A DNA stretch of 64,000 bases. It comes from Haematococcus lacustris (taxonomy: Eukaryota; Chlorophyta; Chlorophyceae; Chlamydomonadales; Haematococcaceae). The stretch covers positions 8,460,100 through 8,524,099 of the forward strand of contig JASKMD010000026.1 of assembly GCA_030144725.1 (NCBI GenBank), written 5' to 3'. A program made the position numbers and the translations under genes. Below are positions 163-64,000 of this stretch, piece by piece. Position 1 is the stretch's first letter. Every line of letters begins with the position of its first letter. Below the pieces are notes generated by a model, which was not told the DNA's origin, did not search any database, and worked only from the letters and a program-made list of their open reading frames with translations.

Positions 163-2359
163 TTATTCCGGCCGGAAAAAGTGCCCATTTATGGAAATTT
201 GACTTGGGGTGACGTGACACGAGTTGCACGCTGTTCGGGTGCAGGGAAGGCCACACGCCATACAAACACCCTCAGACATGTCATCAGCACTAGCACTAGC
301 ACTAGAACACATGTCAGGGGGGGTACTGGTCACCCCTCCCATTGAACCACCACGTAAGGGACATTTGACTTTGCGGCACGCCTCCATCACCTCCTGACCC
401 ATGCGCTCAGTGTGCTTGTCACGGGGGCCTGCTGCTGCTGCTGATCCACGCTTCCACGGCTCCTGCTGCTGTGGCTGCTGGTTCCCAGGATGCGTGGCAG
501 GAACATGGGTGGGAGCTGCCGGCCCTGAGCTGCTCCTGCCCCTCTCCCTGATCCTGCCCCTTCCCCTGCTCCTGCCCCTCTCCCTGCCCCTGGCCCTGTC
601 GGTGTGTGGTGTACTGTGTTGCGTTGTGGCAGCACGGGTGGCAGCTGCGGGAGGGGGGGCTGGCGGGGGCGGGCTGGGGCTGGAGCGGGGGGAGGGGAAT
701 GGGGAGGGGGAGGGGGAGTGAGGGGGGCAGCAACATGCTGCAGCTTTGGCAGCCCCCCCCTCTCTGAGGAACTGTATGGTGCTGGGTGATAAGCGTGCCT
801 TCACCTCGCACAGCAACCTGCTCCGTTCAGCAGGGCTAATGGCCTGCAGACAGGCCAAGTTTTGGTCGTGCCAAGGGCAGGGGTCGGGGCTAGGGCTGCA
901 GCTGGGGCAGGGGCAGGGGTTGGGTCTGGGGCTGAGGCAGCCGGGGGGGCTGGGGAGGGGGCTGGTGCGGGGGCTGTGATGAGGGCTGAGGTGGTGGCGA
1001 GGGCTGGGATGAGGGGAGAGGTGGGGGCCGGGTGGGCTGGGGCTGGGGCTGGGGCTGGGGCTGCTGGGCTGGAATAGTGGCTGCATGGAGGCTGATGGCA
1101 TGCTGTCAGCCGGCGTATTGACCCCCTGCTGCAAGGGTGCGGGGGTGCTGGGACCCTGCTCCTCAGGTAATGGTGCCAACGGGGATGACGAGAAGGGCCT
1201 GCAACACATCAGGGCAGGGCAGGTAGCATGCAGGTAGCAGTGCCTTCAGCTGTACCTTCAGCTTCACAAGTGCCTCATTCATTGTCACCACTCCCAGCCC
1301 CACCCCACCCCACGCCCCTGCCATTCGCCCTGCCCCTCCCTCCCTAGTTACCTGGGTTGCATGATGTGCTGCAGCGCAAACTCCAGTCGGCCAAGCTGTG
1401 CCTCAGCATCTTGCAGTGTTGACAACTGTAGCGTCACCTTGCTATCAGGCTGTGACCGCAGAAGGCGCAACAGAAGGGCAAGGCAGTTCAGCGAAGGTCA
1501 GGCTATGGCCATAGCCAGGGCAAGGCTGGTGCAAGGCAGGGCTGGTGCAGGTCATGGCTGAGGAGTGAAAGGCGCACCTTGCGGTGGCCCAGTCCTGCTG
1601 TTGCTTGGGCATGCTTGGGGGCATGGTCTGCTCGTCCTGCTCCTCAGTGGTGTGTCTGCATGACACCACACGGGAGTGTGACGAGTGGTGCTGCCACCAG
1701 GGTGCTAGGTGGAATGGGCTCAAACAGCTGCAACCTGAGTGTGCAACTCATGTTGTTCAGCTGGCTTGCCATGTCAGCCCATCATCCAGCAGGGGCACTC
1801 ACATGATGGGCTGCTGCTCCTCGGCAGGTGAGGTCACAGGGTTAGTGGCAGGCCTGGTGAGGATGGAGAGCCCCGGTAGGTGCAGCAGTGCTGGCAGGGC
1901 CGGGTGGTGCTGGCTGGACCCCTGCAGCTGGGACTGTGATGGGTGCGAGGGTGGTTGGTCTGGGAGATGGTGGGGGCTGGGCGCATGGGCTGGCCCAAGC
2001 TGTGCACCTGCTTGCATGGGAGTGGAGCAGAGACGGGGCATGGGCTGGGGCTGGCCGGCTGGCTCCTGCCCCCGCAGCCGCTTAGCAAGCGCAGCTGCAG
2101 CAGCCTGGGCGCAAGTCCTATGGGCCAGTGGAATCAGTGCGGGCTTCGTGTTGCTGCAGGCCATGATGACTTCAGACATCTGAGCTGTGACATGGCCGAT
2201 GGCTTGTAGACTCTGTCCGGAACGGTAGAAGGCTGCCTCCCCCTCCACATGGATCTCCACCCAGCCAGCATGGCCAGTTGGTGTACACGTCACACACACA
2301 ACACAGCGGGCAGCATGCCCTCCCTTCCCCTTGTAGGGGTGATACTTGGATGCAGGCAT
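163..2359 (-). CDS. Unrecognised 3-exon gene, Pro/Ser-rich with C-terminal Cys cluster
   Basis: I do not recognise this protein. Three exons join in phase on the minus strand: 1803-2360 (ATG at 2359-2357), 1352-1441 and 163-1198, giving about 560 residues. Donors are GTGAGT and GTAACT. Exon 1 has a Lys/Tyr-rich start and a Cys-x2-Cys pair (VVCVTCTP), then a Pro/Gln/Ser tail. Exon 2 is an amphipathic, probably helical piece (LSTLQDAEAQLGRLEFALQ). Exon 3 begins Pro/Ser-rich, has a short helix (SPAERSRLLCEVKARLSP) faintly like an RPAP1-type motif, then an Arg/Gly/Glu-rich stretch. It ends in a Cys cluster, C-x2-C-x3-C-x4-C-x2-C, possibly zinc-binding, before TAA. The exon join is well supported by phase and splice sites. 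The true start could lie further upstream in another exon. No function is claimed. Confidence 0.55.
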
Positions 2360-2360
2360 C

Positions 2361-4312
2361 CTGCTAGCACGTACACACGTAGGTAAAAACACTATTGGCA
2401 ATACTCAGCAATAGTTGAGAACTTGGCAGGGGGTCCACAGCTAAGTTCCCTAGCCAGTGACGCAGGGCTGGAGAGTTTGATTTAGTTTTATGGTGGTCAT
2501 ACTGGCATCAGCAGAGTGGGCAGCATGGAGGAGGGTTTGCCCACCTTTTGGAGCCTAATCAAGAAGGGATCGATGCAGTTGTCACTTCTGTGCTTCTGCC
2601 GTGGTCTTCTCCAAGTTTCAGAGCCCCTGAGCCAGCGCATGTTGGTCACGATGTTGGACATTGGGTCGGGCTCCTCGCACATCGCGCACTATCCATCGCG
2701 TTAATCAGGGACTCACAGATTCTGGGTCAACGTACATCAAGTCCGCAGGCTCGGTAGGGTCGGATACCCGGCAACATGCCCGACCAGCTCAGCGTGTGGC
2801 TGAGCGCAGCCGCTTTCCGACGCTTCAATCCGCGTGTCTATCCGTGCAGAAATCAGTCCGGAGAAGCCGTTGTCCCTTACCATGAGGGGGGTTGGTGGTC
2901 CAATGGGAGGGGTGACCTACTGCGCCCGACGAAAATACAAACATTTGAAAAGGTGGGCCGCTGAGCGCGATAGCTGTTCTCTGATCACAGCCCCACTAAG
3001 TAGGCTATTCCCAACACAACGCGACCTAATCTCTCAGCACCCCCGCCCGCCCCGGCACAGGTGCACATCAGCCCGAGCAGCCCGCTAGCTTCGCTTTAAT
3101 GAGCTGCACCGTCCTGCGCAGGAATCGTTGTGAAACTCGTAAAGACCAGTAAGATTTTATCAGGGGGTCCGCCAATGGCGGGGGTGACTTCCTGCCTTAC
3201 TCAAGCCTGCACCTGTCCTAATTGAACCCAACCTCTTAGGCATAGGTGGCCGCAGTCCGCGGTCTGCATACATCGCATTAGTTAACGTGTAGATGCGCTG
3301 ATTGTTCAGCAATTTAGAATGCTGAACAAGCCTGGCCAAGCCGATAGCACCCACGACCGCACCCCTTCCCGGCCTGCACATGTATACCCCTTTCCCCTCC
3401 CCCTCCACCATCTGCGTCCACACGTACAGCTGACATGGAATGTTGCAGCAGCAGGTCATGCTACACCGTCGCGTTCCTTTAAGTTCCCTGGGAGGACAGC
3501 GCGTAGCCTTTTTTGCAGAGTCCCCGTCCCCTCTCCCCATCTGCGTCCGCACGTATAGCCAACATGGTAGCTTGCAGCAGCAGTAGGAGGAGGAAGGGTG
3601 GGGCAGCACCCTTGCATGATGCCGGGCATTAAGGAGGAAGGTCTAGGGCCTCCAGACGCCCTGGCAAGCACCATAGCAAGAGCGGCTGGATGGTGCTTTG
3701 CTGGCATCCATCGCGTAGGGGTACAACGTTCATGTGTGTAGCGCAATGTCAGCATTCCGGGTCAAGGGTTTGAGGTCATGTGAGATGAGCCCCAGCCATC
3801 ACACCAGCTGCCTGTGTATGCCGCTCTGTGTGTGCCTCACATCACCGCAAATGCAATCATCCAGCCAGCCAGCCAACCAACCAACCACTCGCGGGAGGTG
3901 TATAGCCTGTGTAAGATAACTGCATGTATGCATGTGGGTGATTTTCTGTTATGTGGTGCATGTGACCCAAGATGAACATGAGGCACACCCACCAAGCCAT
4001 GACATAAGTATGTGGCCATGCTAGAACACAAGCCGACAAGGCCAACCAAGAAACAGGCGCAGGGAGCCACCTGGGGTGGCTGCTAGGAGATGGCTGCTGC
4101 TGCCACCAAGCACCGTCTAGCAGCAATGAATGGGCCTTCCTAGTGCTGCCCAATGAGGGAACCTAAGGTCCAAGATAACAATACATAGGAAGAGGGTAAC
4201 CTCGGTGGGCTTCACGAAACACGGAGAAATACACCACCCTGCTGGTAGTCGGGGTCCTGGCGAGGGGAGTGTTGATCATTGTCACGTGATAAGATGTTCC
4301 TAAACATGATAG
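2361..4312. other. Intergenic, no gene recognised
   Basis: About 1.95 kb without a convincing coding region; the open frames are short and lack splice logic or family motifs. One local feature is a diverged direct duplication of about 60 bases (3397-3462 and 3527-3590, both around CATCTGCGTCC..CACGTA). A short CAAC/CCAG simple repeat lies near 3868-3890. Confidence 0.6.
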
Positions 4313-27255: not shown

Positions 27256-28741
27256 TGGACCCCGACGTCGCGCTGCACTGGCACACCATAAAGCGATACG
27301 TGCCAAGCTGGTAAGTAGTGGCAATGGCAGTGGCGGACACCTCCATTGTGGCGGAATCCACCATTGTGGCGGGAACCCATACCTTAACATCCTCCTCCTC
27401 CACCCTTCACCCTGCAGAGCCCTACCGAGCTGCCAGCCCTTGAAACAGCCCTTGCAACACCACAACAGTCAAGCAGGGGTGCCAGCACATGGGGCCATAA
27501 GCGCCCACGCACCTGCCTTGGCCGGGGCGCCCAGCAGCAGCTGAGCATGGACCAGCAGGAGCTGCAGGGTGCCCAGCACCAGCTGGCTGTGGACCAGCAG
27601 CTGCTGCAGGATGCCCAACGCCAGGTGGCTGTGGACCAGCAGCAGCTGCAGGGTGCCCAGCACCAGCTGGCTGTGGACCAGCAGCAGCTGCAGGGTGCCC
27701 AGCACCAGCTGGCTGTGGACCAGCAGCAGCTGCAGGGTGCCCAGCACCAGCTGAGCCTGGACCAGCAGCAGTTGAAGGGTGCCCAGCACCAGCTGAGCCT
27801 GGACCAGCAGCAGTTGAAGGGTGCCCAGCACCAGCTGGCTCTTGACCTGCAGCAGCTGCAGGGTGTCAAGCGGCAGCTGACCCTAGATCAGGAGCATGGT
27901 CATGAAGCAGTTGTGCATGTGGTCAGATGGGTGCGCAGCTCAGTTCAAGGGCACACCGGCATTGCAGCTGCACCGGCGCATGGCCATGAGGTACAAGGTG
28001 TCAGTGTGGTGGTCGTATGGGGCCACATCTCATTTCAAGGGCCGCCATGACTCTGAGGGTGGGGTTTTCAAGCATAGCATGGCAGCCAGAGTCTTGGCTG
28101 ATCACCCAGTTCTCAGTGCAGAGTGCAAGGCTCAACAGCTGGCAGGTGTGCATAATGTAGAGTGTGTGGTGCCTGCTGCACAGCTAGCTGCCAGTGTTGC
28201 ACATCAGACTAGGGGGAGCGTGCAGCGGCGGTGGTGTTTGGTGCTGAAGGATGAGGAGGTTGAGAAGTGTGCTGAGCCTGACCCTGATGCGCACAGGCTG
28301 CTGCGCACCATCTCTGGGTCGCGGGCCATGCATGCAATGTTCTTCCCCGCAGATGGGGTTGCGCCCATGTGGTCTGAGACTGCATGTGCGTGTGTGAGGC
28401 ACATGGGCAGCAAGCCACAGCAGTGCATGTGTCATGGAGCATCTACCCTGAGCAGCATTCCCATGTTTGGACGTGTGACACTGGCAAGTGACAAGGAGGA
28501 AGATGCTGAGTGCTTGAAGCTTTTGCATGCACGGGCACCACACATTGCAAGCTCTTACATGACCTTGACAATGCATCTGCTGAAGGAGTATGCCCGGGGG
28601 TGCTTGGGGTGGAAGGGCAAGAGGTTGACGCAGAAGAAGCCATTGCTTAGGGCTGACATCTTGGAACATCTGAGGTGGGAGCAAGAGATGGAGGAGGATC
28701 AGTTGGCTGAAGTGGGGGATGACGAGGCAAATGACATGTAA
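27256..28741 (+). CDS. Transposase-like protein with Gln-rich repeats and DDE-like core
   Basis: The reading starts ATG GAC CCC at 27256 ([19 protein letters not shown]), breaks at a GTAAGT donor (27311) and resumes after the CAG at 27416-27418 with [15 protein letters not shown]. From 27547 seven or so 14-residue repeats ([14 protein letters not shown] type) form a probable coiled coil. A frame change or unplaced intron near 27890 leads to the frame starting at 27896, which ends with a stop at 28741. That part contains [11 protein letters not shown] and [20 protein letters not shown]. The aspartate blocks and the GKG/GG-like block resemble a DDE-type transposase family I know only as uncharacterised proteins. 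The C-terminus is basic then acidic. The location between inverted repeats supports a transposition role. Confidence 0.5.
27547..27862 (+). repeat. 42-bp coding tandem repeat
   Basis: About 7.5 units of 42 bases (core GACCAGCAGCAGCTGCAGGG) encode 14-residue Gln-rich units in the element's ORF. Units differ by point changes such as GCTGTG/AGCCTG. Confidence 0.9.
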
Positions 28742-42859: not shown

Positions 42860-43350
42860 CCCTCGTCCCTCACCAGGGCCTCCATTTAAGCCGGACCAGT
42901 AGTGGCCACTAGCAGCCACTAGCGGGAACACTAGTAGCCCGACTCAAATGGTGTCATTGGGCTGTGTGGAGTAAACCCAGTGCACATGGCACATGAGCGC
43001 CTACCACCTACATTTTTGCCTGACTCGTGAGGGCTATCGTGTAGGGTTGGCATGACAAAACATGCACTGATTGTAAGCTGATGACAGCTCAGATGCGGGG
43101 GCACACACTACTGTTCCACACAGCTCAGATGAAGTACAAGACATGCAGACAAGGACAGATGGTGTTCTCCAGGACAGCTTTGGCTGCTGCCAGTGCGCTG
43201 CAGACGTCAGACTGGAGGCTTCAGATCTTGAACGCAGGGACATGAGGAAGGAGGTTCATGGGGAAACAATTGGTGTAAAGCCACCATCGTCTTCGTCAGC
43301 ATTGTCACCGCATTCGACAGCATTCGCAGCACTGAGCAGCCACATTACTC
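42860..43350 (-). mobile_element. Fanzor 3'-noncoding fragment (third copy)
   Basis: The bases 42868-43085 are about 90% identical by eye to the 3' flanks of the two Fanzor genes (57640-57870 and 61860-62090), in the same orientation, including the hairpin at 42882-42951. A second block at 43252-43345 (GGTTCATGGGGAAACAATTG onward) matches 57328-57410. No RuvC coding sequence is present, so this is a solo or truncated element end. Confidence 0.75.
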
Positions 43351-50565: not shown

Positions 50566-51040
50566 TTGCGAGCCCCGGCACCACCCGTACTCCACCGCCC
50601 GATGCAGCCGCTGCCTGGCCTTGGGCAGCCCGTCGTTGACCAGCTTCAAGCCCTATCAGGGGCAGGCAGCGCCCTCGAGGCCCTCCCAGCTGCACATCTG
50701 TAGGGGGCGCTGCCTGCCACCTTTAGGGGGGAGGGGAGGGTCGGGGTATCGTCAGGGTAGGGGGCTGGGCAGGGTCCTAGGCAGGGGTAAGGGTCCAGGC
50801 AGGGGGAGAGGCCTGGGCAGGGGGAAGGTTTTGGGCAGGAAAAAGGGGCACCTCGTGGCACCACATCAGGCCCCGCACCGGCTAACCATGCCTCTTGTGT
50901 TTTTGTTGTCGGGTACAGCACGCAAATTGTCTACGTCGCGGTCCACGAACTTGATCTAAGGGTGTTTCAGTGGGCTCCCCATCAACCCGCGAACTTGCTT
51001 CTGTGTCGCATCGCTGCACACCGGTCGCAGCAGCCTGTCC
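50566..51040 (-). pseudogene. Fanzor relic(s), minus strand
   Basis: Two nested remnants are readable on the minus strand. At 51036-50905: LLRPVCSD, then KQVRGLM, a premature stop, and KFVDRDVDNLRA. This aligns block by block with WLRPVYSE, SQVRGLM and RFYDRDVSAAL of the intact Fanzor at 58.5-61.4 kb. At 50895-50566: VRGLMWCHEVP, a Pro/Gly-rich linker (GQG/CPG repeats), MCSWEGLE and LVNDGLPKARQRLHRAVEYG, which match the C-terminus of the plus-strand relic at 52.5-52.7 kb (LCSYEGL, VHDRLPKVKHRL). Stops and frame changes make both non-functional. The order suggests one element inserted into, or recombined with, another. Confidence 0.6.
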
Positions 51041-51879
51041 GGCGTGTTGGGCAGGCAGTGGCTGGCGCCGACCGCGGTGGTCCGAAGTTTGTCCACACTG
51101 GCACCGCCTGCCGGTCCCGGCTACCAGGTGCCCACGATGCATCGCCGTGGGCAATGGCCGGCTTGATGCCAGGCCAGAGCTGATGGCTAACCCGCTTGAG
51201 CAGCACCCAATACCGGGAGAGGTGCCAGCGTGTTGGTGCAGGGCACAGCCACATTAAGGCACAGGGGTTGGTTGGGTGGTGCGTGCTGCAGGCCAGGTAG
51301 CTAGGGAGCTGGCTGTCGCCCTGCTCCAGAATTGGGACGGCCTGTGACCTGTGCCAACAGCATGGGTTGCCAATGCACGGGCAGGCCAGGACTAAGGCAC
51401 AAGGGCTGTAGGCTGGTGCATGCCACAAGTCAGCTAGCTAGCTAGCTGAAGGGTAGTAACCCTGCAAGCTCACCATGCTCCTTAAACCGAGCCATTGCGC
51501 GGCCCGCTGCTTACTGCCATTGCGTGCTGGCCTTGGTCAAGGTGGGCAGCTGCTCGATATGTTGCCTCCCTGCCAGGTCTGAGTCTGCTGCTTGGCGGCG
51601 CTGAGGCTTCGGTCATGGTGGCACTCGTCCCGGGGGGTCTGCTGGCTGCACAAGTCCCCCATGGTGCCTTCCTCATGCCGCAGGTCAATGGCCATTGCCA
51701 CCATGATGCCACCACCATGCCACCACCATGTGCAGCCTGCCAGGGGGCAGACGGGGGGAGTGGATGTGTTAAAAAAAAAACAATATGTTTTATTTTCTTC
51801 AAAACACCATCTATCAAAATTTCAGCCCGATCGGACAAGGTTGGTAAAAAATGCAGGGAAGAATGCAGGGATTGAGTTC

Positions 51880-52711
51880 TAGGAGTGTGGCAACTTCAGC
51901 CAGGGTGGGTGGAAGGCGGGGGCGGTGCGGGAGGGGTTTTGCAGGGTGGTGGAGCACGTTTGACAGGCCCAGCACGTTTGACAGGCCTGACAGGCTGGTG
52001 ATCGTGGACGAGTTCCGCACCACCAGCTCGTCCGTGCATGCCCGCCAACCTTGTGAGCTGCACCTGCCAAATGACCGGCCTAGGCCCGCAGACTGCGTAC
52101 CCACAGCAGGCCAGGTCAACCATCGGCTGTTGCGCCCAGCCTGGAGCCTGCGGCATGCTAAGGATGTGCGGGGCCTGAAATGGTGCCATGAGGTGCCGCC
52201 CAACCCCAATCCCCCTCCCCCAGCTCAGCACCCCCCTGCCCCTGCCCAGGCCCTCCTTGCCCAGGAGGCCCCTGCCCAGGACCCCCCTGCCCCTCCCCCA
52301 GCCCAGGACCCCCTTGCCCCTCCCCCAGTCTAGGACCCCCCTGCCCCTAGCCCAGGCCAGGACCCCCCACCCCTCCCCCGGCCCAGGCCACACCACCTCC
52401 CCCTGCCCAGGACCAGCCCCCTGCCCGGGCCCCACCTGGCTCAGTGCCACGACCCCAGGCACCCCCATGCGGCAGGTGGCTGGACCGGGATACCAACCCC
52501 TGCCTCAACTTCCATCGCATTGGGGAGAGCATATGCAGCGCCCCCTGGAGCTGTGCAGCTATGAGGGCCTGAAGGCTCTGCCCCCCACTGGCAAGGAGTA
52601 CCAGCAGGGCTACAAGCGGGTCCATGACCGGCTGCCAAAGGTCAAGCACCGGCTGCAGAATACCGGCGGGGCATTGATGGCCGGGCCCGCAACAATGCAT
52701 AGGTCCTGGTA
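51880..52711 (+). pseudogene. Fanzor relic of a second lineage, plus strand
   Basis: The RuvC-II motif reads RLVIVDEFRTTSSS (about 51991-52035), followed by HRLLRPAW and VRGLKWCHE (52120-52195). A long Pro-rich linker follows (52196-52430). After a CAG, RWLDRDTNPCLNFHRIGES (about 52475-52530) is the RuvC-III block with its RD aspartate. One base of frameshift then separates it from MQRPLELCSYEGLKALPP and GKEYQQGYKRVHDRLPK, which ends with a stop near 52699-52711. The RuvC-I part is not visible upstream; an in-place duplication (CACGTTTGACAGGCC twice, 51955-51985) interrupts the sequence there. The C-terminal extension differs from the intact pair at 58-64 kb, so this belongs to another Fanzor lineage. 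Linker and final block could have been separate exons. Confidence 0.65.
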
Positions 52712-52765
52712 GTTAGCCTGGTAGGTCCTGGTAGTTAGCACAGGCTTTTAGCATTACAAGCATTA

Positions 52766-52956
52766 AGCTGCTAGTTTTGATGAGGTGCCCAGTGGTCAAG
52801 GGGGATTAGCCCCAGGAAAGAGTGCCATTGATGTGGGGGCTGCAGTCAGCAAGGGTGCGACCGAGGATGCTACAACATGATTGTAGTAGCTGAGTACGTG
52901 AATTTACCCACAGGCCAACATGTTGTTCCTTGTTGAATGAGTTTTGTTTGTCTGCC
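52766..52956 (+). repeat. Dispersed repeat, copy 2
   Basis: A diverged copy of 50374-50547 (shared words CTAGTTTTGATGAGGTGCCC and GGGTGCGACCGAGGATGCT), located just after the plus-strand Fanzor relic. Confidence 0.75.
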
Positions 52957-53388
52957 AGGGGGCAGAGTGTGACAAGGGCAGCTTACCCCGGCTTGTGGGC
53001 TGCTCTGCTGCGGGGGCTGGGGCTGGGTGATGGCCAGTGGAGGGGATCAGGCTCGTGGGTGGGTGGGGTGGGTGTGTGGGACAGCTAGGGGGCCGCAGGT
53101 GCCAGGGCCTCGCCCAGGTTGGAGAGGCAAGCCAGGGCCGGTGGGGTGGGGACGGCTGATATGCACGCGGACCGCTTCACCCTCCGTCTGCACCAGCAGT
53201 CCAAAGCTGGCTCCTGCAGCCTGCAGCTTGTCTACCCTTGACAGGAGCACCTCCCACCACTCGTGGAGAATAAGGCCGAGTCGGCGATTTTAGGTAAGGG
53301 GTACTGCAGATAGCCCTTTCAAAGGCCGTTCCATCGCCATATGTTTCATGATTTTAATCGACGTGGTTGGGCTGTAATCGGCCCTGAG
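52957..53388. other. Intergenic, no gene recognised
   Basis: About 430 G-rich bases between the repeat copy and the satellite array. No ORF with recognisable motifs. Confidence 0.6.
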
Positions 53389-56664: not shown

Positions 56665-56795
56665 CAGGGTGGCCAGCTCAGGGTCGGGTCAGGGTGAGGA
56701 TCAGGTAGCAGGTGGGTTGGGGGTCAGGAATATACCTTTCCTATGTGCCGCTGTGCCGCGCCTTATACGACTGCAGAGCCCCATGCTGACAGGGT

Positions 56796-57417
56796 GCCCC
56801 ATGCTGTGTTACCCTGGCCAAGGGTGTTACCGCTTCTTCCCATCGTACCCATGCAAGGCTGCTGTTGCTGCCCCTTAGGAAGTGCCCTTTGGAAGTGCTC
56901 TTTAGAGGCTTGCCCTTTGGAGGTGCGAGAGTGAGTGACATCGCCTCCTGGGTATAAGTAGGAACGCGCAGATATGAGAAGGTATGAGCCTATTGGCAAG
57001 TACAAGCGGCTGCGAGACAAGCCACCCAAGGCTCAGTAGCAGCCTGCTGAGGCACAGTAGCGTGTGCCCCCCACTTTGAGCTGTCATCAGCTCACAATCA
57101 GTGCATGTTTTTCATGCCAACTCTACATCATAGCCCTCGTGGTCAGGCAATAGTGTAGGTGGCAGGCGACCATGACCATGTGTATGCCATGTATAAGCAT
57201 GAGTATGCCATGTGAAGGGGAACACCACACAGACAAACCACCGTTTTGTAATGGTCCACAATGAGTGTTCGACTGCAATGATGGCTCATGGTTGAGAGGC
57301 AAGGTGCTGACAGGGTGGCTGACAGGAAGGTTCATGGGGAAACAATTGGTGTAAAGCCACCATCGTCTTCGTCAGCATTGTCACCGCATCTTCCAACACT
57401 GAGCAGCCCCTACGGCC
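56796..57417. repeat. Segment present in unit A and absent from unit B
   Basis: About 622-624 bases interrupt the otherwise collinear 3' regions. Part of it (57056-57180) is an inverted copy of the sequence at about 57755-57872 (including the TGACAGC..TGCATGTTTT block), and 57328-57410 matches the fragment at 43252-43345. It could be an insertion in A or a deletion in B; because the 43-kb fragment shares it, a deletion in B is plausible. Confidence 0.75.
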
Positions 57418-57588
57418 ACCTGGGCCAAGAAGGCTGCCAGGCCTGATGATGCCTGTGGGTCCTGCCAGGCCACCTGGCCCCAACGCCCCGCCAGGGCCAG
57501 CAATGCCACCTGGCAGGCTGATGACGCGGTTCACCTCATCCCTTGGCCCATCAGGCCGTGACTTGAACTTGTCAATGCTGCCAGTCAT
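57286..57588 (-). other. Small Gly/Pro open frame conserved in both units
   Basis: A minus-strand frame starts MTGSIDKFKSRPDGPRDEVN and continues with GPGG/GPTG-type repeats. Unit B keeps the start and the repeats (61813 downward) with two or three substitutions, but the C-terminal part differs because of the 624-base difference. Whether it is translated is unknown; it lies where a guide RNA would be expected, so the conservation may reflect recent duplication only. Confidence 0.3.
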
Positions 57589-57655
57589 GTTGTGAACACA
57601 GTCTGGAACACTTCAGGTCAGTCCAAGGCAACCCCCTTGTCCCTCACTAGGGCCT

Positions 57656-57735
57656 CCATTTGAGCCGGACCAGTAGTGGCCACTAGCAGCCACTAGCGGG
57701 AATACTAGTGGGCCATAGTAGCCCGACTCAAATGG
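57656..57735 (-). ncRNA. Candidate guide-RNA (omega-RNA) hairpin, unit A
   Basis: An 80-base imperfect palindrome: CCATTTGAG..CCGG at the left pairs with CCG..CTCAAATGG at the right, and TAGTGGCCACTAGCAGCCAC forms an inner stem with CACTAGCGGG and ACTAGTGGGCCATAGT. It lies about 750 bases downstream of the Fanzor stop on the gene's own strand. OMEGA systems place the guide RNA at the 3' end of the nuclease gene. The homologous hairpins at 61881-61962 and 42882-42951 keep the outer stem with single changes. The RNA role is inference. Confidence 0.4.
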
Positions 57736-58481
57736 TGTTACTGGGCTGTGTGGAGTAAACCCAGTGCACATGGCACATGAGCGCCTGCCACCTACATTAT
57801 TGCCTGACCCCTGAGGGCTATTGTGTAGAGTCGGCATGTCAAAACATGCACTAATGTAAGCTGATGACAGCCTTCCTGTGAGCCAGGTTCTGCCAGGCCA
57901 GCCAGCCCGAGCCTATCGGCAGTCCAAGGCAGTCCAGGGGAAGGCAAGGCAGGGGTTGGGATGTACCTTGCCTGGTTTGTCACATGTATGGCTGCCTTGT
58001 CGAGCTGTGGTGCACTTCTAGGAGTACGCACTAGCGCAGGTGTGTAGGTGGGTGGGGGGATGGCAGGGGCGGCGGAGCACTCGCCTGCCGGGTCTGTTCA
58101 CGAAAAGTTCTACTGGGCCAGCGATCACGTCCGCGGACAAACCTGTCGAGGCAGTAGAGGCAGCTGACACGAAGGTGCTTGAACTGCGCACTACATCCCC
58201 GCAGCTGTTTGGCTTACCTAACACTAGCAAGGAGACCAAGTTTTGGTCCCTACAGCCCTCATGCAACTCATGAGTTGTAATCAAACACAGGCTGCGAGAT
58301 CGCTGTTGTAAAGGCTACTGATAGTGTGCCTAGTGCCCACTTCAGCTCAGCCTTCTGGTGTGTGTGCCTCCAGGGCTACTACTAGCAAGAGCTCTACCCT
58401 ACTCTATAGCTCTCACTCACACACATCCCCTTTGTGAGGGGCTCAATATTTTGTTTTCTTGGATTGTCTTGCTCCTGCTGG

Positions 58482-61388
58482 CTACCGCTGCCACTTGCGC
58501 CGCCACTTGCGCAACAGGGCCTTGTCAGGCAGGTACACCCACTGCTGGCCTGGCTGGCCTGGCTTTGGCATGGCTGGGCGGCCATCCCAGTAGCACAGCT
58601 CAGTGGGGCGTGGTCCTGGGCCAACTGCGCAGCGGCGGATGTTTAGCGCGGCTGACACGTCCCGGTCATAGAACCTGCACATGGTGTGGGAGATGCATGA
58701 AGTCAAGCCATGTGCCATGTCATGTGTCATTTCATGTGGGATATGTTGCAGTGTCTGGTCAGTGCTTACCTGATGTTGTGGCTTGTTGAGCTCATCAAGC
58801 CCCTGACTTGGGATCGCTTTGCCTCGCTGTACACTGGCCGCAGCCACCTGCATGGACACATGGGGCAATGCACATTTGTAAGATTCATTCCTTACCTTCC
58901 CAATGTTGACCCTACCCAGCCACCTTGACTCCACCACCTCCTAGCACTACCCTGACCCAACGACCATCACCCACTGACCCTCTCACCTGAAGGACTCTGG
59001 CGGCTGTCCTGGGAGGGCCTCACTGGGGCTGCTGTAGGCTGAGCTGACCCGGCTGGTGCGGAACTCCTCCACCAGCACCACACGCCCTGCCCCGAATTGC
59101 TTCACTGCCTCCTTCCGCATCTGGCTGACTGGGACACCCCTGCAGCCAATGCTGCCGCTGCCGCTGAAGCTAGCTGCCCCATAGGCCAGGGCCAGGATGC
59201 GGTCCGGCCACCGCTTCTGTGCCTGCTTCTTGACCTGCATCCACACATGGTACAGCACACAGTGGCACACATGTGTAAGGTCGGGTATACCAGCAGCAAC
59301 AGAGGCAGCAACAGGAGCAACAGCAGCTGGCCAGGTGAGCTGACTGTGGTTGGCTGCTGCTACTGGGCCTTACCTTGGCCCAGAACGAAGCCACCACGCG
59401 CATCTTGCCACAGTACAGCCTGAACTTGGCGTTGGCCCAGCGCTTCTTTGAAACCTCGGCCCACATGGCGTCGTACGTCGCCAGGACTGTGTTGGCGAAC
59501 CGCCGGTACGAGGCCAGCGAGCTGGGCTTGCTGCTGACCCGCGACAGGGCTGTGAGCTGCGGCTTCACCTTGGCCAGCCACGTCTTGGTCGCCTGGGCCT
59601 GCCGCGTAATGCCGCTGTCCCGGTAGTACTGACCGGCTGTAAGCTTCAAGTGCCACACAGACACTACTGTGCCGGCAGCGCTGCGCTCCTCGTGCGCCAC
59701 TGTGGCCATGTTGGTTTTGCCGGGGTCCACGCCCAGCCACTCCGCGTGAAGATGGGCCAGCGGGTTGACTGCGCCCAAGCCCCTGCCCATCCGCGGCAGC
59801 TCTGCGGGTGGAGCTGCAGGCTTGGGCCGCAGGAACATCACGCTGATGGCGACTCCATCGGTGTGCACGATTTGCGCGAAGTTGTGCTTGGGGCTAGCGA
59901 GCTTCTGGCGGCGAGGGTCAGGCAGCAATGCATCCCATCGGTTTGCCACCTGTAGCCACCATATGCACATACCAAGGCACTTCATTAGCTTGTGTGGGCT
60001 CACAAGGCAGGCACAAGGCAGCTGACTGCAGGCTCACAAGGCATGTGACAGCACACATGGCAGCTGACGGAGCACCAGAGGACTGACTAGCACCTGACTG
60101 CAAGGAGCACTCACGTGGCTGTCTTTGGGCCCTGCAATGAAGTTGCCCGGCACCGCTGGGTCAGGTAGGGCACCGTTCCTGAACTTCTTCAAGGAGGTGA
60201 CCCCCTCCTCCGTCAGCACCCCCAGCATGCCGGCGTCATGCATCATGCCGTACAGGCCCCTGGTGTCGATGAAGACATGCCGAGCCTGGCACTTGCTGGT
60301 GGGGGTGAGGGCATAGGGTGTGGGGGGGCGGGGGGGCCTTGGCAGCAGCCCTGGGTTGGTGAGCTCAGCCTGCTGCCAGGGCACCATATCCAGCTGCCAG
60401 GCTGCCATGGCTGCCTCCATCTCTCTGGTAGTGTGCACCGCATGGCGCAGCAGCCGGCCCCGGTTGACTGGATCCTCCACCCAATCATCATTCACCAGCT
60501 CCCCCTCCTCAAGCCCCAGCAGGCCCCGTTGCAAAGCCACCTCAGCCTGCATGGCTGGAGTCGGCACCACCCCACCCTGCTCCAGCAGCCAGCTGACGTC
60601 TAGGCCGCACACCATGCGGCGCACATAGGTGCACTCCCGCTTTGACCAGGCTGGCAGGTGCCCACCACCCACCCCCCAGAATCCAAATCTGCGCCGGTGT
60701 TCCTCAGTGCCCACCAGGACCTTAGCCCCAGCGAGGGACACTGACTTCTTGAGCCTGCCAGCGAAGAGCAGGGTGAGCATGTTGCTGAAAGCTATCTCCA
60801 GCTGCTTCCCGACGTGGTCCACCATGTTAGTGTCAGACAGGTGGCGGGGGATTGCTGCGAGGCGGGCGCGAAGGTCAGGGTGCGCTGCCAGCACGGCAGC
60901 CACTGCCGCGTTTGGCTGAGTGTTCGCGCCGTTTCCGGGCGGGCCGCGGCACAGCTGCAGGAACAGGTTCCGGCAGCTCAGGTCCGGGATGGCTGCCTGG
61001 GAGACAGGGATGTCTGTGTACACGGGCTGTTCGTGCAGGCCCAGCGGGTCGGCTACGCGAATGGTAAACAAGCCGCGCACGAGTAAGCCCAACAGCAGGC
61101 TGGCGAGCACCCCACGCTCGCTGATGGCCTCCACTCGTGGCTGCACAGCGTCGTCCAGAAAGGCATCCCAAAGCTCTTGCGGGAGGTGGTCGATGAGGTG
61201 GGCTATCTTACACTTCCTGCCGTGGTATGGGTTATCCCTATCGCGGGCAGCTCGGGCCTCTCCGGAGGTCTTTCTATTTCGCTGCGCTTCGGTGAGGTCC
61301 GGCTGTAGTGCCTCGTCGCGGTCCTCAATGTCACTGTCGAGGTCCTCCGGCACTGGCCTAGTCACCGTCCGTCTTTTTTTTTAGCCAT
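58482..61388 (-). CDS. Fanzor RNA-guided nuclease homologue, copy A
   Basis: Fanzors are eukaryotic TnpB relatives that cut DNA with an element-encoded RNA. Exons: 60115-61388, 59374-59949, 58987-59234, 58770-58847, 58482-58674; phase holds, 781 residues from codon 61365. RuvC-I: WLGVDPGKTNMATVAH (Asp about 492). RuvC-II: VLVEEFRTSR (Glu about 666). RuvC-III: RFYDRDVSAALNIRR (Asp about 723). All three catalytic acids are present. WLRPVYSEAKRSQVRGLM and an upstream VHTDGVAISV block match Chlamydomonas-type Fanzors as I know them. The TnpB zinc ribbon is degenerate: both CxxC pairs are missing. Exon 1 (417 residues) would hold the WED/REC part. The only ATG (61388) is separated from the long frame by a nine-A run; in the sequence as given the frames do not match by one base. 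With one more A the start would read MAKKKRRTVTRP, a basic nuclear-localisation-like tail. Confidence 0.85.
61374..61382 (-). other. A9 homopolymer causing an apparent frameshift at the Fanzor start
   Basis: Nine T on the plus strand (A on the sense strand) follow ATG-GCT. As written, the ATG frame ends at TGA after eight codons, while the 417-codon frame is shifted by one base. This may be a homopolymer sequencing error, a real inactivating deletion or a slippage site. Confidence 0.8.
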
Positions 61389-61880
61389 AGAAACCAAGAG
61401 CGTGAAGCCATCACAAATACTAGAAAAATTGTCAGGTTTGTTCGTTACCTTTATATCTACCTATAATCTACCTGACCTACAAGCTCACCTATCTTAATCT
61501 ACCTGACCTACAGGGTGGCCAGGTCAGGGTCGGGTCAGGGTGAGGATCAGGTAGCAGGTGGGTTGGGGGTCAGGAATATACCTTTCCTATGTGCCGCTGT
61601 GCCGCGCCTTATACGACTGCAGAGCCCCATGCTGACAGGGTCACCTGGGCCAAGAAGGCTGCCAGGCCTGATGATGCCTGTGGGTCCTGCAAGGCCACCT
61701 GGCCCCAACGCCCTGCCAGGGCCAGCAATGCCACCTGGCAGGCTGATGACGCAGTTCACCTCATCCCTTGGCCCATCAGGCCGTGACTTGAACTTGTCAA
61801 TGCTGCCAGTCACGTTGTGAACACAGTCCGGGGCACTTCAGGTCAGTCCAAGGCAGCCCCCTTGTCCCTCACTAGGGCCT

Positions 61881-61962
61881 CCATTTGAGCCGGACCAGTA
61901 GTGGCCACTAGCAGTCACTAGCGGGAATGTACTAGTGGGCAATAGTGGCCCGACTTAAATGG
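61881..61962 (-). ncRNA. Candidate guide-RNA hairpin, unit B
   Basis: The counterpart of the hairpin at 57656-57735. The outer stem is CCATTTGAG with CTTAAATGG, one change that is a G-U pair on the plus strand and an A-C mismatch on the Fanzor sense strand. The inner loop has a GTCACTAG/GCAATAG variant. The role is inferred. Confidence 0.35.
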
Positions 61963-62703
61963 TGTTATTGGGCTGTGTGGAGTAAACCCAGTGCACATGG
62001 CACATGAGCGCCTGCCACCTGCCCCCTGACCCCTGAGGGCTATTGTGTAGAGTCGGCATGTCAAAACATGCACTAATGTAAGCTGATGACAGCCTTCCTG
62101 TGAGCCAGGTTCTGCCAGGCCAGCCAGCCCGAGCCTATCGGCAGTCCAAGGCAGTCCAGGGGAAGGCAAGGCAGGGGTTGGGATGCACCTTGCCTGGTTT
62201 CTCACATGTATGGCTGCCTTGTCGAGCTGTGGTGCACTTCTAGGAGTACGCACTAGCGCAGGTGTGTAGGTGGGTGGGGGGATGGCAGGGGCGGCGGAGC
62301 ACTCGCCTGCCGGGTCTGTTCACGAAAAGTTCTACTGGGCCAGCGATCACGTCCGCGGACAAACCTGTCGAGGCAGTAGAGGCAGCTGACACGAAGGTGC
62401 TTGAACTGCGCACTACATCCCCGCAGCTGTTTGGCTTACCTAACACTAGCAAGGAGACCAAGTTTTGGTCCCTACAGCCCTCATGCAACTCATGAGTTGT
62501 AATCAAACACAGGCTGCGAGATCGCTGTTGTAAAGGCTACTGATAGTGTGCCTAGTGCCCACTTCAGCTCAGCCTTCTGGTGTGTGTGCCTCCAGGGCTA
62601 CTACTAGCAAGAGCTCTACCCTACTCTATAGCTCTCACTCACACACATCCCCTTTGTGAGGGGCTCAATAATTTGTTTTCTTGGATTGTCTTGCTCCTGC
62701 TGG

Positions 62704-64000
62704 CTACCGCTGCCACTTGCGCCGCCACTTGCGCAACAGGGCCTTGTCAGGCAGGTACACCCACTGCTGGCCTGGCTGGCCTGGCTTTGGCATGGCTGGG
62801 CGGCCATCCCAGTAGCACAGCTCAGTGGGGCGTGGTCCTGGGCCAACTGCGCAGCGGCGGATGTTTAGCGCGGCTGACACGTCCCGGTGATAGAACCTGC
62901 ACATGGTGTGGGAGATGCATGAAGTCAAGCCATGTGCCATGTCATGTGTCATTTCATGTGGGATATGTTGCAGTGTCTGGTCAGTGCTTACCTGATGTTG
63001 TGGCTTGTTGAGCTCATCAAGCCCCTGACTTGGGATCGCTTCGCCTCGCTGTACACTGGCCGCAGCCACCTGCATGGACACATGGGGCAATGCACATTTG
63101 TAAGATTCATTCCTTACCTTCCCAATGTTGACCCTACCCAGCCACCTTGACTCCACCACCTCCTAGCACTACCCTGACCCAACGACCATCACCCACTGAC
63201 CCTCTCACCTGAAGGACTCTGGCGGCTGTCCTGGGAGGGCCTCACTGGGGCTGCTGTAGGCTGAGCTGACCCGGCTGGTGCGGAACTCCTCCACCAGCAC
63301 CACACGCCCTGCCCCGAATTGCTTCACTGCCTCCTTCCGCATCTGGCTGACTGGGACACCCCTGCAGCCAATGCTGCCGCTGCCGCTGAAGCTAGCTGCC
63401 CCATAGGCCAGGGCCAGGATGCGGTCCGGCCACCGCTTCTGTGCCTGCTTCTTGACCTGCATCCACACATGGTACAGCACACAGTGGCACACATGTGTAA
63501 GGTCGGGTATACCAGCAGCAACAGAGGCAGCAACAGGAGCAACAGCAGCTGGCCAGGTGAGCTGACTGTGGTTGGCTGCTGCTACTGGGCCTTACCTTGG
63601 CCCAGAACGAAGCCACCACGCGCATCTTGCCACAGTACAGCCTGAACCTGGCGTTGGCCCAGCGCTTCTTTGAGACCTCGGCCCACATGGCGTCGTACGT
63701 CGCCAGGACTGTGTTGGCGAACCGCCGGTACGAGGCCAGCGAGCTGGGCTTGCTGCTGACCCGCGACAGGGCTGTGAGCTGCGGCTTCACCTTGGCCAGC
63801 CACGTCTTGGTCGCCTGGGCCTGCCGCGTAATGCCGCTGTCCCGGTAGTACTGACCGGCTGTAAGCTTCCAGTGCCGCACAGACACTACTGTGCCGGCAG
63901 CGCTGCGCTCCTCGTGCGCCACTGTGGCCATGTTGGTTTTGCCGGGGTCCACGCCCAGCCACTCCGCGTGAAGATGGGCCAGCGGGTTGACTGCGCCCAA
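62704..64000 (-). CDS. Fanzor RNA-guided nuclease homologue, copy B (5' part beyond window)
   Basis: Exons 62704-62896, 62992-63069, 63209-63456 and 63596 to beyond 64000 match copy A at an offset of 4222. RuvC-I (VDPGKTN), RuvC-II (VEEFRTSR) and RuvC-III (RDVSAALNI) are all present. Differences from A that I can read: His for Asp two residues before the RuvC-III catalytic Asp (FYHRD against FYDRD), Arg for Lys in ANARFRLYC, and VSVRHWKLTAG against VSVWHLKLTAG. Other changes are silent. The N-terminal exon lies outside the window, so whether copy B has an intact start is unknown. Confidence 0.85.

Follow-up and report, generated by a model that had tools for sequence, protein, structure and literature searches.

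A Fanzor1 element family without zinc-ribbon cysteines in Haematococcus lacustris: one damaged copy and one truncated segmental duplicate at a single locus

Fanzor1 proteins have been described with a C4 zinc finger between RuvC-II and RuvC-III, which is called "strictly conserved" in the consulted parts of PMC3627910 and is present in many Fanzor1 according to those of PMC10711439. The latter parts also give DPG at RuvC-I as a Fanzor1 fingerprint, and for the elements CRe-1/2/3 of Chlamydomonas a one-ended Helitron2 movement was proposed (PMC3627910, consulted parts). Here we analysed a stretch of 64,000 nucleotides (the window) from Haematococcus lacustris, assembly GCA_030144725.1, contig JASKMD010000026.1, positions 8,460,100 to 8,524,099 of the forward strand; its last part, from window position 56665, carries two copies of a Fanzor-like gene. 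We consider it likely that both derive from a high-copy Fanzor1 element, probably non-autonomous, with five exons and without zinc-ribbon cysteines, one being a damaged copy and the other a truncated segmental duplicate; the 3' RNA of this element would be a guide-bearing omega RNA. The computed part of this explanation consists of the Fanzor1 family, the aligned RuvC triad, the constant 3' end with target duplications and the conserved 3' RNA.

Profile comparison with the SpuFz1 family of Spizellomyces revealed Fanzor1 homology (E 1.5e-14). A first AlphaFold model was poor, with a predicted local distance difference test (pLDDT) of 50.4. Solved Fanzors were the top-ranked matches of the predicted models, also when these were built on sequences of the Haematococcus search alone. 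An earlier note, made from the DNA letters only, had assigned both copies to Fanzor and read the RuvC motifs VDPGKTN, VEEFRTSR and RDVSAALNI in them. This assignment held: the motifs are present in both copies and the three catalytic residues align. In a paralog set of 154 proteins, pooled from two relative searches, the alignment placed a D-E-D triad in 90 of the 110 members having all three positions aligned, and likewise in both window copies. Both copies have DPG at RuvC-I, where the SpuFz1 counterpart by alignment is DPN. The rearranged RuvC-II Glu lies six residues ahead of the zinc-finger position (E-FRTSRV-S), and the S aligns with C548 of SpuFz1. We concluded that, by homology and predicted fold, the window genes are real Fanzor1 genes; the protein is probably an RNA-guided DNA-cutting enzyme. 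A single SpuFz1 fragment, compared by hhalign, gave a weak match to A1 (E 0.012), and the score of a SpuFz1 fragment against the core was within the range of 60 shuffled sequences. In the first relative search 114 of the 120 matches listed (of 280) were named Haematococcus, and among the matches listed (120 of 280; 120 of 208) none from outside Haematococcus was a closer relative than SpuFz1. Viral contigs gave six pattern matches, none of which was confirmed as a relative.

At the four zinc positions of SpuFz1, Cys was found in 0/145, 0/144, 0/129 and 0/111 paralog letters, where we chose the four positions by reading the alignment, and the last of them adjoins a gap. When only the first 120 paralogs were counted, earlier and in a slightly different alignment, one Cys appeared at the second position. 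Cys was common one position ahead of the third site (94/128). A single CxxC occurred in one of 127 readable spans and two in none, and by eye no CxxC pair was seen at the zinc region of the second Fanzor-like fragment in P0065. In the SpuFz1 family, CxxC or CxC follows directly after the Glu-TS motif in 28 of the 29 motif-bearing members (of 36). The Haematococcus family does not show the C4 zinc finger of Fanzor1. From these alignments, the Haematococcus genes are an unusual Fanzor1 in which the cysteines of the zinc ribbon are absent, and this form seems to have lost the metal-binding zinc ribbon that its best-studied relatives kept. No report of a Fanzor without zinc ribbon was met in the titles and abstract openings of the Fanzor literature surveyed, most full texts being outside the survey.

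Copy 1 has five exons with GT-AG introns on the minus strand (Table 1). Its exon 1 comprises 1274 nt, compared with 1275 or 1278 in 16 relatives parsed by script. The reading frame from the conserved ATG hits a stop after 8 codons, and in the long exon-1 frame, of 422 residues, the next Met comes at residue 186. Nineteen genome copies were fetched, namely the top 16 exon-1 matches and three lower-ranked ones; exon 1 is stop-free in all of them. Homology to the window copy begins at 61446 in 17 of the 19 and ends within 58234-58249 in 17 of the 19. These ends ruled out an element end at 56665. The 131 terminal nt there did not fold better than shuffled sequences (z 1.2 and 1.6), and the stretch is now known to be flank. 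A segment with inverted arms of about 100 bp, 86% alike, was observed at 57080-57871, with a partial repeat at 42860-43313.

Table 1. Features of the two Fanzor1 copies (window positions).
Feature	Position	Strand	Basis
Copy 1 of the Fanzor1 mobile element: shared core, with a 5' leader that varies among copies	58236..61446	-	19 fetched genome copies
Copy 1 exon 1, from conserved ATG, out of frame past ATG; REC and part of WED (alignment)	60115..61388	-	
Copy 1 exon 2: WED TDG motif, RuvC-I (VDPGKTN)	59374..59949	-	
Copy 1 exon 3: RuvC-II (VEEFRTSR)	58987..59234	-	
Copy 1 exon 4: part of the region that holds the zinc ribbon in SpuFz1	58770..58847	-	
Copy 1 exon 5 and stop: RuvC-III (RDVSAALNI), C-terminus	58482..58674	-	
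Conserved structured 3' RNA, candidate omega RNA	58236..58481	-	
Copy 1 3' flank, mostly duplicated along with copy 1; contains inverted-repeat segment	56665..58235	-	
Segmental duplicate: 3' flank and 5'-truncated Fanzor copy 2; homology continues to 64088 beyond window	61511..64000	-	
Copy 2 exon 2 (part): RuvC-I	63596..63999	-	
Copy 2 exon 3: RuvC-II	63209..63456	-	
Copy 2 exon 4	62992..63069	-	
Copy 2 exon 5: RuvC-III, YDRD -> YHRD	62704..62896	-	
Structured 3' RNA, copy 2	62459..62703	-	

The repeat from 56665 is a segmental duplication that includes the 3' flank. Copies 1 and 2 have this flank in common down to 61511, except for about 620 bp absent from copy 2, and since it is shared, two independent insertions were ruled out. 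The homology of copy 2 ends at window-equivalent 64088, which corresponds to residue 454 in P0006, a relative of 789 residues; copy 2 therefore lacks exon 1 as well as the beginning of exon 2. Copy 2 is a truncated segmental duplicate, not a whole gene. The head-to-tail pair of five-exon Fanzor genes proposed in the earlier note was thus right in the Fanzor identity and in the exon structure of copy 1, but there is no gene pair, and copy 2 does not have all five exons. The reading of few protein changes and a recent duplication agreed with our data: 57414-59778 and 61639-64000 are 98.6% identical, and six of 307 codons compared differ, two silently and four not. In copy 2 the first Asp of YDRD is changed to His, but the alignment makes the second one the catalytic Asp, and so the triad of copy 2 is intact. 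The further proposal, which made the locus a strong candidate for an active or recently active system, could not be upheld, because the start of copy 1 is shifted and copy 2 is 5'-truncated. Neither window copy looks intact from its reading frame, and both are probably non-functional.

Elsewhere in the genome, where all copy counts are lower bounds, 13 of the 19 fetched copies have an intact five-exon open reading frame (ORF) of 781-790 residues. All introns are GT-AG in 12 of the 13, the first donor of L027 being TT. Among the remaining six, the script missed a landmark in L011, L015 and L022, and the frames of L013, L014 and L016 are shorter. The ratio of non-synonymous to synonymous substitution rates (dN/dS) was 0.26 over 21 pairs among the 7 equal-length copies of the 13 intact ones, a choice of intact copies only, which favours a low ratio. 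A stop was present in 12 of 56 scored exon-1 matches, the window copy included, and 44 were stop-free. From these frames the family looks recently active; activity can fairly be inferred for the family at other genomic loci, but not for the two window copies.

The copies have variable, nested 5' leaders. Their 3' end was located in 17 copies, most of which share the constant terminus ...GGGATTAAAAC(TTG); a few stop some bases earlier, and no 3' end was located in L011 and L022. Target duplications of at least 9 bp were found at 11 of 17 loci compared with 4 of 270 controls, and at 4 of 10 further loci. These ten were drawn from 40 scored 3' untranslated regions (UTRs) and chosen for having no listed exon-1 match alongside; six carry internal deletions, three are 5'-truncated, and one (L055) has an insert, its 5' end not being reached. 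Overall 15 of 27 insertions have target duplications, of 9-18 bp, ten starting with TTG and five with TG, where the 9-bp cut-off counts the (T)TG letters and is therefore biased toward sites having them. L021 and L026 have the same target site.

The 3' UTR of about 250 nt holds a conserved RNA with some covariation, and the stretch after the stop folded with z near -2. A first look gave 2399 candidates in the genome; 12 of the 40 that were scored share the maximal score across 258 nt. The RNA is also present in six subfamily B loci, as two blocks minus a variable arm, and its 5' part in 9/9 fetched subfamily C loci. For 19 selected rows, pairing held in 94.1% of cells and the score for covariation was above 500 of 500 shuffles. 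Changes on both sides of a pair were seen three times in helix 3 and once in helix 5. Rfam gave matches only far under the gathering scores. We regard the conserved RNA as a candidate omega RNA. Separately, a divergent copy of it (78%) was observed on the reverse strand of L015 at 2495-2749; the 75 nt ahead of this copy were, by eye, unlike Fanzor coding, and it is perhaps a gene-less element.

A number of results speak against the explanation given above. The better structural model had a mean pLDDT of 69.9, and its input alignment included SpuFz1 relatives. TNB matched six of eight paralogs at 12.5-16.7 bits, under the cut-off of 26.3, and P0006 itself was unmatched. Nothing relevant was found in Pfam, NCBIfam and PDB with single sequences or exons, in PHROGs and NCBIfam with eight paralogs, or in a profile search of PDB. 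As to the RNA, two of five covariation measures were not above shuffles (both-side changes were as high in 137 of 500, further pair types in 311 of 500), and in 5 of the 19 rows helix 3 has three of its nine pairs broken. The structure was drawn from the same sequences that were used to test it, and kinship of the rows alone can beat shuffles without structure. RNAalifold on all 19 rows recovered helices 1 and 2 only, with no compensatory pairs; on the nine subfamily C rows helix 3 was found too.

In the explanation that we favour, the 3' RNA would act as omega RNA, the sequence directly past the 3' end of the element would be the guide, and the Fanzor protein would cut DNA matching it. Since an insertion site without the element would be matched by the guide, cutting would promote retention or copying of the element. 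A more specific form, which we hold to be rather unlikely, is that of a zinc-ribbon-free Fanzor1 lineage under selection, in which the 3' RNA would be transposition end and guide scaffold at once, the 3' flank the guide and (T)TG the target-adjacent motif, so that each copy would be programmed against its own empty site. Equally doubtful to us is that the 3' RNA is instead a recognition tail for a trans-acting reverse transcriptase, like that of short and long interspersed nuclear elements (SINE/LINE), and that ends and duplications result from target-primed reverse transcription. The nested 5' ends, the constant 3' end, the length of the target duplications and the (T)TG common to element end and target in 15/15 duplications of at least 9 bp would suit such a process. 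However, all four introns are retained in 13 read-through copies, so a spliced mRNA was not their template, and the internal deletions in 6 of the 10 further copies fuse a 5' piece to a 3' piece.

One-ended Helitron2 transposition with Fanzor as cargo or helper concerns the movement and is compatible with the favoured explanation; we consider it a real possibility, somewhat short of an even chance. The mixture of 5' truncations, internal deletions, intact 3' ends and target duplications resembles that of the CRe elements, as do the five exons, which CRe-1 has (PMC3627910, consulted parts), but TTTT precedes 0/11 target duplications of at least 9 bp at the first 17 loci. Asymmetric terminal inverted repeats and terminal hairpins would mark a Helitron2 carrier; the end test, which used 56665 and not the true 3' end, gave only 8-bp inverted matches, and 8-mers occurred in 207 of 2000 shuffles. 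That the whole family is dead, its conservation reflecting recent shared ancestry only, appears improbable. Both window copies are damaged, 6 of the 19 fetched copies have no clean full ORF, and 12 of 56 exon-1 matches, the window's included, hold a stop. Against this stand the dN/dS of 0.26 with 13 of 19 copies intact, the 44 stop-free exon-1 matches and the 12 of 40 scored 3' UTRs tied at the maximal score over 258 nt.

Other Fanzor-like pieces were observed nearby. Decayed pieces at 50587-53256 (minus) and 51965-52699 (plus) resemble a second, divergent Fanzor subfamily, several being best matched by P0065, and just beyond the window L009 (window-equivalent 69491-71172) is a further degenerate Fanzor of P0066 type. 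The stretches 1580-2392 (minus) and 28211-28546 (plus) match parts of two gene models, P0070 and P0048; these models are perhaps fused host genes, or else other repeats.

Should intact relatives prove to cut DNA, Fanzors would be able to do without the zinc ribbon, and Haematococcus, an alga grown for astaxanthin, would hold a large natural set of guide-bearing elements. The constant 3' ends with the target duplications offer a directly testable guess at guide and motif.

Compared with known systems, the Haematococcus family shares with SpuFz1 (Spizellomyces punctatus Fanzor1, PDB 8gkh) the WED motifs IDT and TDG, DP at RuvC-I, the RuvC-II Glu at the same place ahead of the zinc-finger position, the RuvC-III Asp and the overall predicted fold. 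It differs in the zinc-ribbon cysteines, which SpuFz1 has, and in its five exons, whereas SpuFz1 is, in the consulted parts of its description, a single ORF between inverted repeats. An abundant Fanzor-coding repeat in another green alga, Auxenochlorella, is alike by description (PMC12636532, consulted parts). With the Fanzor1 elements CRe-1/2/3 of Chlamydomonas reinhardtii (Bao and Jurka 2013, PMC3627910, consulted parts), the likeness is by description only and not by protein sequence, zinc positions included: there too 3' ends are intact, 5' truncations occur with internal deletions, and CRe-1 has five exons. Target duplications of about 7-19 bp are reported there, which come after T-rich tetranucleotides, whereas those of Haematococcus start with (T)TG.
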